The notes beneath the pieces were generated by a model. It made no database searches. It saw only the letters and a list, made by a program, of their open reading frames with translations, and was not told the DNA's origin. A stretch of 64,000 bases of DNA from Auricularia sp. M13 (taxonomy: Eukaryota; Basidiomycota; Agaricomycetes; Auriculariales; Auriculariaceae), in the NCBI GenBank assembly GCA_037042915.1, contig CM073202.1:62001-126000 (forward strand), given 5' to 3'. How positions within the stretch are numbered: the first letter of the stretch is position 1; the number at the start of each line of letters is the position of its first letter. The translations under genes and the position numbers were made by a program. This document shows positions 44,166-57,993 of this stretch, piece by piece.

Positions 44166-44858
44166 GATATCATCATGCCGATGTCAACCGCACTCTTTCG
44201 GGTTCAGATCGCCGGTTATTGCGCCGCGCAACACGCAAGCCGATCTCAGGCGCAGACCTCATGGCTTGCAGCCGCGGGATATTTTTTCTTGCCGCCGGGC
44301 GTCTAGCCAATGTGGAAGCCAGCGGTTTAAAAGTACTAAAGAGAAACATGCTAGTAAGTACTTCCTAAGCTGAAGGCCAAATGAGGGCACCGAATCGGAC
44401 TGGAGTGAGCTACCTGCACTGAGGGCGCTGCCGTTGCTTTTCAAGACTTCAGGGTCGTGCTGACGGCAAACCAAAGCTAGGAATGTTCAAATCGATGCAG
44501 CACCCTGGTGGGTGTTATAACTGCGGGCCCGATGCAAGGGACGATAGAGCGCTAAAACCTCTGAGTCTGAATAGCGTTTAGTTGTGGGGTGGTCCCGGTT
44601 AGTGGAGGGGGCTGATAGTGAGCACTCGGCTCCCGGCAGCTACGGCTTGATGGAGCTGGAGCGAGCACTGGGTGCTGGGATTGCTGTGCCCGCCACATCG
44701 CCGCGGAATTGGTACGAGCACTGAGAATGGTCCGAGTGCTCGCCGTGTTCTGGAGAAAGCCGAGTGCGCGTCGAAGCTCAATGAGTGCTCTGGTCCAGAG
44801 CGCGTCTGTTTCGTCGAAGTCCTCACATTGCATAGACCCTGATTCCTGCCTCTGAGGA

Positions 44859-44868
44859 TATATAAAGG
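44859..44868 (+). promoter_or_regulatory. TATA box of transposon accessory gene, copy 1
   Basis: TATATAAAGG lies 71 bp upstream of the ATG at 44930. Mirrored in copy 2. Confidence 0.7.
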
Positions 44869-44929
44869 TCGTCTTTGCAAACGCTGACCGCATTGCGTTG
44901 CCTTTTGACTTCCCAATCCGTTCCTTAGC

Positions 44930-46168
44930 ATGTTCTTCCCTCGTCGTGGCCAAGTCGGTCCTCGTCGCCATGCTCAGCCGCTGGCAGGATATCGTCGCCC
45001 GGCCCCGTACCCTATCACCCCGGCTCATCGCATGGCGCGCGTTCTTCTAGCTCCTGACGCGACCCAGACTCTCCTTCGTCGCATTGAGGTAGCTTCTCAG
45101 CTCGGGACTGTTTTGGAATGGTCGCACGATGCCAACGACCTTCGTCCGTGGCACTGGTACGCATGTGCACTCCTTGTGACATTAGGATTGAATTAACTCT
45201 GGTACAATAGGCCAGTTCGGCGCGCGCGCAGGCGCTCGGATGGGCGCGTTCGTAGCTGCCAGCGGGCCGAGTGCACATAGCAGAGCACGGACTAGCCTAT
45301 CCAGTCTGCCTGCATGGCCGTAGCGGCTTTGTGACGCGTCAAGAAGCTCAAGCTAGACTTGTTCCTGAGACAAAGGACGGGAAAAAGGTCTACAAATTCG
45401 TATGTGCTCACCAGTACGAAGCCGACGACTGCTTCTATGAAGGTACGCTGCCTGCTTGTCGCCCTTCAGCTTTATTCCCTGAGACTCTTCTTAGTGTATG
45501 TTGCTACAACTCCAGCCATTGCCGTGCGAAATTCGGTGTTCAATCCAGGTGAGATTACTCCAGCTCGGTTCAAAGAGTGTGCAATTAACTCGGACCTGTA
45601 GCCTTTCAGTTCCAGGCTCCACCCGCGTATCTGTACCTGCAAGGTAGCTCTCTCACGAGCTGACTTTGACTCTGTCTCATCCTCCTTCTCAGTGGACCCC
45701 GACGAGTCGGACGGCGAAGAGCCCGAGGCAATGGGCTTCTCCGTTTTCAACTTGGAGAATCCTGGCATCCCGGCTCAGATCGCCAACTCGGCCTCGCTCG
45801 TTGAGACACGCGCTCTGATGTCCCTCAATAGTGCCGAGGGATTGAAGGTCGATTATCTACCTGCGCTCCATCGCATTTTGCAGCATTGCCAGTCATGCGA
45901 CATCGTGGCTCTTCCAGCGGCAATGAGGGCTCACATTCGCTCTGGTCTTTGTCGTCGCTTTGCGATGGACCTTGAACAAGATACACCAGATGAGCCTCAA
46001 GCAGGCCCTTCCAGTGGCAGCCGGTCATCGTCAGGGTCGCCGCTAGCTACTGATCAATCCGTTCTTACAGTTCAATCCCAACATTCTTTAGTAGACACAA
46101 TCCTTGCACTAATCCGTGATTCCTTACTTAATACACAATGTCATGCGCCTTACAAGTTTAGCTTGTGA
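44930..46168 (+). pseudogene. Transposon accessory gene, copy 1 (frameshifted)
   Basis: Unrecognised protein with several exons. Exon 1, 44930-45156, starts MFFPRRGQVGPRRHAQPLAG. Exon 2 begins at 45211 and ends before GTACGCTG at about 45442. A short exon encodes YVATTPAIAVRNSVFNPG and a small one AFQFQAPPAYLYLQ. The last exon, from about 45693, encodes VDPDESDGEEPEAMGFSVFN and ends at 46168. In exon 2 this copy lacks two bases twice relative to the right arm (near 45218 and 45265), breaking the frame between WPV and the VCLHGRSGFV region. Its 3' part is longer than in copy 2, ending with DTILALIRDSLLNTQ. No known domain seen; it lies tail to tail with the transposase candidate. Confidence 0.65.
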
Positions 46169-46675
46169 GATTCCGTTAGCACGAGGTTCGTGTGCCGGGA
46201 GAGCATCTTCCGCTCATACCAGAATGCGCGAATGACGCGAGCAGCATCAAGCCTGCGCTTCATCGGTCCAGAGCCGCAGGATGTTGTACAAGCCGCAGCG
46301 AATGGCAGAGAGTCCCAGTGCTAGCGCAACTGTGCAAGCGGACTTGGCCGACAGACCATGTCTTGCCCACAGCAATCGAGGGCAGTGTGACTCAAGAGAC
46401 TCTCGCAGGGTATTTATGTACACTTTGAGACTCTAACCGCAAAAGATGAGCTCTTAGTAGGCTCTGCCCCAGTCGTGGTGGGTGATAGTAATGTTGGTGC
46501 AGACCGATGGTGCAGCTACTCTACTTCCTTATATTTTCATTGCTCAGATAAGCTCATACATAACATGCACAGTTTAATACTGTAGATTATAGCTTGAGGA
46601 CGAGGAGAATTGAAAGAGGAAATACTAAGGGTCAGTGTTACAAATGTAGATACTGTTGGATAGCCAGGATTGTAG

Positions 46676-46765
46676 GGCCTTATAGTCTAGTGGTTTAGAC
46701 ATGAAACCCGTTTTTCCCTGCACACCAGTATAGGATGTGTTCAATCCGTGTTTGGAGAATAATTT
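46676..46765 (+). ncRNA. tRNA-like sequence with A and B boxes
   Basis: TAGTCTAGTGGTTTAGAC has the exact form of a tRNA D-arm and A box, with GTCT/AGAC pairing. About 45 bases later GTGTTCAATCCGTG has the form of a T-arm and B box, followed by a TTTTT stop at about 46769. The 5' and 3' ends do not pair into an acceptor stem, so it is not a normal tRNA. It lies between the two transposon genes and is mirrored at about 55755-55845. It could be a tRNA-derived relic or a pol III unit. Confidence 0.35.
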
Positions 46766-55619: not shown

Positions 55620-55754
55620 TAGAGTTAATATTACCAGCTTTTGTTGCAAAGGTCATGACCGTAAATGTTCAAAGTGCATTGAAATCTCCGGAGGCAAACG
55701 GATACTTCCGCTTCAAAACAAAATGAGTTGCGTGCTCAGTTTCCAATATATAAA

Positions 55755-55845
55755 AATTATTCTCCAAACACGGATTGAACATATCCTATACTGGTGTGCA
55801 GGGAAAAACGGGTTTCATGTCTAAACCACTAGACTATAAGGCCCT
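55755..55845 (-). ncRNA. tRNA-like sequence, mirror copy
   Basis: Inverse of 46676-46765, with one base difference in the T-arm (ATATG here, ATGTG there), which slightly improves pairing of that stem. Same A-box, B-box and poly-T arrangement. Confidence 0.35.
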
Positions 55846-56348
55846 ACAATCCTGGCTATCCAACAGTATCTACATTTGTAACACTGACCCTTAGTATTTC
55901 CTCTTTCAATTCTCCTCGTCCTCAAGCTATAATCTACAGTATTAAACTGTGCATGTTATGTATGAGCTTATCTGAGCAATGAAAATATAAGGAAGTAGAG
56001 TAGCTGCACCATCGGTCTGCACCAACATTACTATCACCCACCACGACTGGGGCAGAGCCTACTAAGAGCTCATCTTTTGCGGTTAGAGTCTCAAAGTGTA
56101 CATAAATACCCTGCGAGAGTCTCTTGAGTCACACTGCCCTCGATTGCTGTGGGCAAGACATGGTCTGTCGGCCAAGTCCGCTTGCACAGTTGCGCTAGCA
56201 CTGGGACTCTCTGCCATTCGCTGCGGCTTGTACAACATCCTGCGGCTCTGGACCGATGAAGCGCAGGCTTGATGCTGCTCGCGTCATTCGCGCATTCTGG
56301 TATGAGCGGAAGATGCTCTCCCGGCACACGAACCTCGTGCTAACGGAA

Positions 56349-57592
56349 TCTCACAAGCTAAACTTGTAAGGCGCATGACATTGTGTATTAAGTAAGGAAT
56401 CACGGATTAGTGCAAGGATTGTGTCTACTAAAGAATGTTGGGATTGAACTGTAAGAACGGATTGATCAGTAGCTAGCGGCGACCTGACGATGACCGGCTG
56501 CCACTGGAAGGGCCTGCTTGAGGCTCATCTGGTGTATCTTGTTCAAGGTCCATCGCAAAGCGACGACAAAGACCAGAGCGAATGTGAGCCCTCATTGCCG
56601 CTGGAAGAGCCACGATGTCGCATGACTGGCAATGCTGCAAAATGCGATGGAGCGCAGGTAGATAATCGACCTTCAATCCCTCGGCACTATTGAGGGACAT
56701 CAGAGCGCGTGTCTCAACGAGCGAGGCCGAGTTGGCGATCTGAGCCGGGATGCCAGGATTCTCCAAGTTGAAAACGGAGAAGCCCATTGCCTCGGGCTCT
56801 TCGTCGTCCGACTCGTCGGGGTCCACTGAGAAGGAGGATGAGACAGAGTCAAAGTCAGCTCGTGAGAGAGCTACCTTGCAGGTACAGATACGCGGGTGGA
56901 GCCTGGAACTGAAAGGCTACAGGTCCGAGTTAATTGCACACTCTTTGAACCGAGCTGGAGTAATCTCACCTGGATTGAACACCGAATTTCGCACGGCAAT
57001 GGCTGGAGTTGTAGCAACATACACTAAGAAGAGTCTCAGGGAATAAAGCTGAAGGGCGACAAGCAGGCAGCGTACCTTCATAGAAGCAGTCGTCGGCTTC
57101 GTACTGGTGAGCACATACGAATTTGTAGACCTTTTTCCCGTCCTTTGTCTCAGGAACAAGTCTAGCTTGAGCTTCTTGACGCGTCACAAAGCCGCTACGG
57201 CCATGCAGGCAGACTGGATAGGCTAGTCCGTGCTCTGCTATGTGCACTCGAAGCCCGCTGGCAGCTACGAACGCGCCCATCCGAGCGCCTGCGCGTGCGC
57301 CGTGAACTGGCCTATTGTACCAGAGTTAATTCAATCCTAATGTCACAAGGAGTGCACATGCGTACCAGTGCCACGGACGAAGGTCGTTGGCATCGTGCGA
57401 CCATTCCAAAACAGTCCCGAGCTGAGAAGCTACCTCAATGCGACGAAGGAGAGTCTGGGTCGCGTCAGGAGCTAGAAGAACGCGCGCCATGCGATGAGCC
57501 GGGGTGATAGGGTACGGGGCCGGGCGACGATATCCTGCCAGCGGCTGAGCATGGCGACGAGGACCGACTTGGCCACGACGAGGGAAGAACAT
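56349..57592 (-). pseudogene. Transposon accessory gene, copy 2 (late frameshift)
   Basis: ATG at 57592. Exon 2 is open here, including GARAGARMGAFVAASGLRVH followed by EHGLAYPVCLHGRSGFVTRQ and KVYKFVCAHQYEADDCFYE. This block has spaced Cys/His residues that could bind a metal. A one-base loss near 56485 turns the C-terminus into SSSGRR-stop, so about 40 residues of the copy 1 version are lost. Function unknown; it travels with the transposase. Confidence 0.65.
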
Positions 57593-57920
57593 GCTAAGGA
57601 ACGGATTGGGAAGTCAAAAGGCAACGCAATGCGGTCAGCGTTTGCAAAGACGACCTTTATATATCCTCAGAGGCAGGAATCAGGGTCTATGCAATGTGAG
57701 GACTTCGACGAAACAGACGCGCTCTGGACCAGAGCACTCATTGAGCTTCGACGCGCACTCGGCTTTCTCCAGAACACGGCGAGCACTCGGACCATTCTCA
57801 GTGCTCGTACCAATTCCGCGGCGATGTGGCGGGCACAGCAATCCCAGCACCCAGTGCTCGCTCCAGCTCCATCAAGCCGTAGCTGCCGGGAGCCGAGTGC
57901 TCACTATCAGCCCCCTCCAC

Positions 57921-57993
57921 CGCCGAGTGCTCACTGCAGCTCCATCAAGCCGGGCGCGCCGAGAGCCGAGTGCTCACTATCAACGTGTTCCTC
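57921..57993 (+). repeat. Third copy of the transposon terminus (73 bp)
   Basis: Matches 51223-51295 over 73 bp, in the same orientation, and is directly joined to the right arm. It ends with ACGTGTTCCTC and continues into unique DNA (GATGAGAGACTCC). Confidence 0.93.

Follow-up and report, generated by a model that had tools for sequence, protein, structure and literature searches.

An inverted transposon duplication in Auricularia sp. M13 and its probable origin by reversed-ends transposition

The genome of the fungus Auricularia sp. M13 (52 Mb in 14 contigs; assembly GCA_037042915.1) contains a head-to-head, near-perfect palindrome of ~13 kb made of two copies of a two-gene DNA transposon with terminal inverted repeats (TIRs). 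We found that its joints carry a short target-site duplication (TSD) in inverted orientation, placed precisely at transposon tips. The palindrome is probably the product of a single reversed-ends (alternative) transposition, in which the transposase would have acted on ends of two neighbouring copies. Judged from the sequence, this origin is well supported. We analysed a 64-kb stretch (the window), which is positions 62,001-126,000 of the 3.65-Mb contig CM073202.1. Coordinates without a contig name are positions in the window.

Structure, joints and origin of the palindrome

Self-comparison of the window with BLAST aligned 44602-51231 with 57920-51296 (minus strand) at 99.5% identity over 6641 columns, with 6 mismatches and 16 gap openings. 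The two arms (44602-51231 and 51296-57920) are separated by a spacer of 64 bp (51232-51295). A first-pass annotation of the window had described two reverse-complement arms of ~6.6 kb with a 64-bp spacer, and had read them as an inverted duplication of a DNA transposon. Both statements were borne out. The interval it gave holds more than bare arms and a spacer: the spacer sequence recurs at 57930-57993, as the plus-oriented R tip of copy 2. The account of an inverted duplication can also be sharpened, as the interval includes an inverted 9-bp target duplication (51296-51304 and 57921-57929).

The length of the TSD and the tips of the element are known independently of the palindrome, from TSD-flanked single copies. 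Genome searches used 0.8-0.9 kb of either element end as the query, and the copy counts are lower bounds. The family has at least the palindrome pair, two single full copies (C11:2.738-2.745 Mb and C10:2.350-2.357 Mb; hereafter the single copies C1 and C2, without regard to order) and one lone R-end-like stretch. Both single full-length copies (2/2) have perfect 9-bp TSDs, ACATCTCCG and AAACGATCC. They begin GTGGAGGGGG and finish GTTCCTC. The four copies span 6670-6694 bp and have imperfect TIRs of ~65 bp. In copy 1 of the palindrome, the L repeat (44613-44677, plus strand) is 83-86% identical to the R end, and the R repeat is at 51220-51284 (minus strand). The lone R-end-like stretch (locus L018, 66 bp at C10:3192184-3192249) shows 85% similarity to the element's R tip, and we found no second end for it within its 3-kb locus.

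Read from left to right, the joints are ordered as follows. The left outer 9 bp, TCCCGGTTA (44593-44601), are the expected left TSD of copy 1 and are absent at the right outer edge. They are followed by copy 1 (E1), complete from L tip to R tip (44602-51295, 6694 bp, plus strand), with boundaries taken from the TSD-flanked single copies. The spacer is the final 64 bp of E1, its R tip (plus strand). Directly at this tip, the 9-bp target-site copy CACTCGGCG (51296-51304, minus strand) opens the inverted portion of copy 2 (E2; 51296-57920, minus strand), which ends at its own L tip. Here lies the other target-site copy, CGCCGAGTG (57921-57929, plus strand), and the target site and the E2 R tip (together 57921-57993, plus strand) have kept their original orientation. 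The right outer 9 bp, GATGAGAGA (57994-58002), are the expected right TSD of copy 2.

The inner 9-mers are reverse complements of each other without a mismatch (9/9), and their length is that of the TSD of the family. As a check on chance, reverse-complement pairs of 9-mers turned up 19 times per 2,000,000 random draws from the window. A transposon end is present at each inversion breakpoint (R tip of E1, 51295; L tip of E2, 57920). The arms stop at the independently defined tips, and the inverted arm overlaps the left-over R tip by exactly 9 bp. The site plus left-over R tip (57921-57993) is identical to 51223-51295 of E1 at 73/73 positions. The outer 9-mers are alike at only 2/9 positions, and the outer 20-bp flanks have 0 common 5-mers. 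Unlike outer flanks are expected if each stems from a separate insertion.

Based on these results we suggest the following route. We infer an ancestor with E1, then a piece of DNA, X, and then E2, the two copies being near-identical neighbours in the same orientation. The transposase would have brought together one end of each copy, R of E1 and L of E2, rather than both ends of one copy. X would have been excised and lost, and both ends would have been joined to the 9-bp target CGCCGAGTG inside the R end of E2 itself, 64 bp short of its tip. E2 would thereby have been inverted as far as the target and its R tip would have stayed behind, leaving the copies head to head around a 64-bp spacer. 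The pair of ancestral copies and the loss of X belong to the model; the sequence itself shows the joints, the 9-bp duplication in inverted orientation, the R tip left behind and the unlike outer flanks. A script that applied this model to the deduced E1 and E2 reproduced the 13,592-bp stretch exactly, which is a test of consistency only because E2 was deduced from the same stretch. In maize, new TSDs mark the breakpoints of reversed-ends inversions and the DNA between the two elements is lost, whereas homologous recombination makes no new TSD (PMC8225341). The joints described here have the features published for the maize Ac/fAc inversions: a transposon at each breakpoint and, at both, a TSD of the length typical of the family, inverted.

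Four points weigh against a reversed-ends origin. Neither an ancestor carrying two direct copies nor the missing X nor an empty site was found, and ~0.7-0.8 kb of each flank matches only its own locus. E1 and E2 differ from each other by 6 substitutions, compared with 61-98 between either of them and the single copies and 86 between the single copies. This near-identity indicates that E2 came from a recent local jump of E1 or that the arms were homogenised by gene conversion. A different route, in which a nested insertion was followed by inversion of the 64-bp spacer, gives identical letters. Lastly, the joints were read from the assembly alone, not from raw reads.

We wrote out six alternative sequence models beside the reversed-ends inversion. 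Five of them (plain nested insertion, direct nesting, two complete head-to-head copies, a fold-back artefact and the deletion outcome of a reversed-ends event) left 131 to 13,250 differing columns. All five were rejected on this mismatch. Two models reproduced the observed letters: reversed-ends transposition, and nested insertion with a spacer flip.

In the nested route, one copy would have landed, reversed, within the R end of another, and recombination between the arms would then have flipped the 64-bp spacer. Maize doubleDs is such a copy inserted in reverse orientation into another copy. A literature search on doubleDs gave nothing direct among the matches listed (best 8 of 46). The route yields the observed letters exactly, and 131 alignment columns differ if the flip is left out; it is general knowledge that a short spacer between arms this long can flip through homologous recombination. 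However, the host copy should carry matching 9-bp TSDs, which TCCCGGTTA and GATGAGAGA are not, and an additional event that changed one flank is required. The nested model needs one TSD common to both outer sides, and under the reversed-ends model the two sides should be unrelated. The observed sides are unlike, which favours reversed-ends transposition, and we consider the nested route unlikely.

We think it very improbable that the palindrome is an artefact of assembly or of a fold-back read. Palindromes are prone to such artefacts, and the arms show a surplus of gap differences: the ratio of gap events to mismatches was 16:6 between the arms and 10:86 between the single copies (Fisher p = 9e-9). 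Private gap events numbered 11 in E1, 4 in E2, 7 in C1 and 2 in C2, and private substitutions 4, 2, 25 and 60, respectively; C1, though a single copy, is thus also fairly rich in gaps. Base-call error of long reads in inverted duplications has been reported for nanopore sequencing (PMC7229812), and the surplus of gaps in the arms resembles such error. The broken reading frames in E1 and E2 are therefore uncertain, and the true identity of the arms may be above 99.5%. In contrast, a fold-back of the left part left 232 differing columns and predicts that the left flank is repeated on the right. No second genomic place was found for the real right flank. An artefact would not stop at transposon tips with an inverted 9-bp site, and the locus lies >100 kb inside its contig.

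Transposition of a single element using sister chromatids (R end of one, L end of the other) into its own R end would account for the near-identity of E1 and E2, but in that case the outer flanks should both be TSDs from a single insertion. Because they differ, we rejected this highly implausible route, which is contradicted unless a flank changed later.

The element and its transposase

The element has a transposase gene and a putative second gene. The second gene (45250-46050 in E1, plus strand, with approximate limits from open frames) reads toward the centre and is without a known domain; its two main frames had no Pfam match. The transposase gene has 7 exons in a hand-made model and its frame is broken in the assembly in both E1 (46900-50589, minus strand) and E2 (51934-55619, plus strand). 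A TATA-like box precedes the gene in E1 (50661-50667, minus strand). Under this model the frame of 1128 aa is open throughout in 1/4 copies, the single copy C2. The frames of the other three copies stop at codons 87, 514 and 237.

The 9-bp TSD (2/2 single copies) and the TIRs fit the pattern of Mutator-like elements (MULEs), TIRs with a TSD of 8-11 bp, with a TIR (~65 bp) that is shorter than typical. In its TSD, ends and layout, the element resembles Mutyl of Yarrowia lipolytica as published (PMC2725143, PMC6446971). Mutyl, likened here by description only, is a fungal Mutator-like element of 7.4 kb with imperfect TIRs, a 9-10-bp TSD and two open reading frames (ORFs), one of 1178 aa, the second being antisense. 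The TIRs of Mutyl are 22 bp compared with ~65 bp here, and the palindrome element has no match to a Mutator profile.

Protein comparisons placed the transposase less clearly. There was no Pfam transposase match for 10 separate frames, or at E<=10 for the spliced 1128-aa protein and two paralogs; all gave weak sub-cut-off matches only. The 25-aa Mutator signature, in the form given in PMC2725143, was present in 0/4 proteins. A search of solved structures returned a single match, a ribosomal protein at E = 1. A first protein search with the transposase had 0 matches; a later one, started from a two-sequence alignment, found 3 relatives, in Exidia glandulosa (54%), Suillus discolor (29%) and Mycena epipterygia (35%). 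These relatives (P0121, P0122 and P0123) are annotated only as hypothetical or uncharacterized and have no precomputed Pfam domain. Within the genome there are also diverged paralogs of the transposase at L042 (C10:3083267-3084847; 40-45%, by segment) and L050 (C6:3683318-3684835; 28-38%, by segment).

The 1128-aa protein has D579, D660, C709-x2-H712, W784 and E795, all conserved in a 43%-identical paralog. An order of D, D, C-x2-H, W and E has been described for Mutator and hAT transposases (PMC5225508). The residues of the 1128-aa protein appear to follow this order, and their catalytic role is putative. In an alignment of five proteins that included the Exidia, Suillus and Mycena relatives, only the first D and the E were invariant columns; the second D and the C-x2-H were unaligned in the Suillus and Mycena proteins. 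The element has Mutator-like features but its membership is unproven. We did not file it in the Mutator superfamily because there is no Pfam transposase match, the 25-residue signature is absent, and only the first D and the E are invariant.

The window contains other repeats. A second inverted pair (27893-29620 and 37782-39501; 1.7 kb, 96%) lies with its members ~8 kb apart. Both hold a long ORF of one protein family, and the pair looks like a gene duplication. Repeats related by DNA similarity to a FAD-dependent monooxygenase are at 2435-3565, 9083-9667, 25600-26321, 35474-36650 and 42408-43577. The last of these, the sole copy searched as a protein, was closest to proteins of Auricularia subglabra (74%) and Exidia glandulosa (59%). 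An exact direct repeat of 141 bp is at 7472-7612 and 8304-8444.

Hairpin RNA and possible silencing

Independently of how the palindrome arose, it might silence the family in trans as a natural hairpin-RNA locus. We regard this function as possible but doubtful. The near-perfect arms and the 64-bp spacer fit it. The TATA-like sequence TATATAAAG occurs 4 times in the window, each time within the palindrome (plus strand, 44859 and 50959; minus strand, 51558 and 57655). The L-end box (44859-44867, plus strand) reads toward the centre. The R-end box of E1 (50959-50967, plus strand) faces outward from its element and points across the spacer, as does the mirror box of E2 (51558-51566, minus strand). 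The first-pass annotation had recognised boxes directed at the centre and had seen no gene in front of them. The boxes are there, but the box at 50959 faces the transposase gene of the other arm (51934-55619, plus strand).

The position of this box limits the hairpin. Measured from the end of arm 1, the box is 272 bp away and the start codon of the transposase 642 bp. We assumed that transcripts start ~30 nt downstream of the box. Such a transcript begins ~242 bp from the arm end, and its stem has 242 columns with 240 matches. With a start at 242 bp and the start codon at 642 bp, the stem would be without transposase sequence, whatever the length of the transcript. Of the hairpin proposed earlier, a stem across the spacer would thus be possible and the extension over the transposase gene would not, at least from the box at 50959. 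The predicted fold of the transcript from 50990 to 51537 had an energy of -596 kcal/mol, compared with a mean of -258 for 100 shuffled sequences. The R tip, with most of the terminal repeat, lies in the loop. The transposase of the opposite arm would be carried as single-stranded sense RNA only. For a hairpin of full length, transcription would have to run on from the L-end box at 44859 through 6.4 kb to the arm end, a path on which there are two AATAAA motifs (50505 and 50799, plus strand).

The genome has the domains expected for RNA interference (RNAi). Matches that we grouped into loci ourselves gave Piwi at 6 loci (13 rows), RdRP (RNA-dependent RNA polymerase) at 7 loci (19 rows) and Dicer-dimer at 3 loci (3 rows), in agreement with the earlier statement that most Agaricomycetes keep Dicer and Argonaute. 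Two of the RdRP matches lie in tandem ~6 kb apart (G000 C6:2077937-2085776). As a likely consequence, the outward-facing R-end promoters would read into the opposite arm and produce 5'-extended transposase transcripts with a ~242-bp stem, which the Dicer of the fungus could cut. In Arabidopsis Cvi, a palindrome with a 50-bp spacer makes small interfering RNAs (siRNAs), and 5'-extended transcripts have been suggested as their source (PMC13213937).

Other observations argue against silencing by the palindrome. The stem made from the R-end box is on the upstream side of the TATA-like box that serves the transposase gene (50661), so that siRNAs from this stem could hit the promoter or chromatin but not the transposase mRNA directly, unless an RdRP spreads the signal. 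An intact single copy (C2) persists.

The single copies give a hint of silencing. Their private C-to-T or G-to-A changes numbered 46, of which 28 were at CpG (27% expected, p = 2e-6). This count used the private substitutions of C1 (25) and C2 (60) and left out 34 two-against-two or complex sites and 6 that were private to E1 or E2. The bias fits past CpG methylation of the family, but it was computed on the single copies and not genome-wide. Taken as a reading of the sequence, a silencing role of the palindrome is possible.

Known systems and meaning of the palindrome

The reversed-ends inversions of maize Ac/fAc (PMC8225341, PMC9910405) are alike in having two direct elements, use of the inner ends, new TSDs at both breakpoints and a lost fragment; for the palindrome, the direct elements and the fragment are inferred. 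The maize cases have an 8-bp TSD, inverted segments of ~81 kb and a known progenitor, whereas the palindrome has a 9-bp TSD, an unassigned Mutator-like element of a fungus and a deduced ancestor. Moreover, the segment inverted here is the element itself, which gives a near-perfect palindrome.

VANDAL21 of Arabidopsis is an element of the Mutator superfamily. Head-to-head VANDAL21 copies in met1, for which alternative transposition has been proposed, likewise involve two close copies of one DNA transposon family, loss of the spacer and inversions (PMC12312487). In our case there is one assembled product with resolved TSDs. For a citrus Mutator-like element with unlike flanks, the authors argue against alternative transposition (PMC4334395).

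Maize Mu killer was the parallel drawn in the earlier annotation. Like the palindrome, it is an inverted duplication of a DNA transposon able to give foldback or antisense RNA (PMC3440606). The layout is a looser match. Mu killer has two partial copies of the mudrA half, with both TIRs (TIRA) outside and its centre inside mudrA (PMC3440606). In the palindrome the copies are essentially complete and the 5' ends of the transposase genes face the centre. Its outer ends are an L end (44602) and an R tip (57993), and so it lacks the Mu killer arrangement in which both outer ends are the transposase-proximal TIR. Silencing by Mu killer was shown genetically, and silenced plants had short antisense transcripts from inside the locus rather than read-through from the flank (PMC3440606). 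By our comparison, the closest working parallel is the VIM4-VIM2 palindrome of Arabidopsis Cvi-0, not Mu killer. There too, inverted genes face a spacer of ~50 bp and may give 5'-extended stem-loop transcripts (PMC13213937). VIM4 and VIM2 are host genes with demonstrated siRNAs, whereas our palindrome is known from sequence alone.

To our knowledge, the origin of natural transposon hairpins, Mu killer among them, is unsettled. Among the listed open-licence literature we found no fungal case of this kind with resolved TSDs. Two fungal papers treat alternative transposition in general terms only (PMC6679389, PMC4905642). For hairpin-RNA transposon loci of basidiomycetes, there was nothing direct among the matches listed (best 15 of 153).

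Reversed-ends transposition into the partner's own end could be a one-step route by which a transposase makes a hairpin locus. An active family would then produce its own RNAi trigger, siRNAs arising from R-end promoters that read into the opposite arm would repress the remaining copies, and the palindrome could itself move. We offer this full sequence of events as a speculation with low odds. If it is true, the palindrome, bounded by an L end and an R end over the whole 13.4 kb, could be mobile as a whole, a macro-element that silences itself. Its joints can be read to the single base and implicate the transposase itself, and the fungus has a small family along with Dicer, Argonaute and RdRP domains. 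The chain from aberrant transposition to palindrome, to small RNAs and to silencing of the intact copy is therefore testable in one strain.

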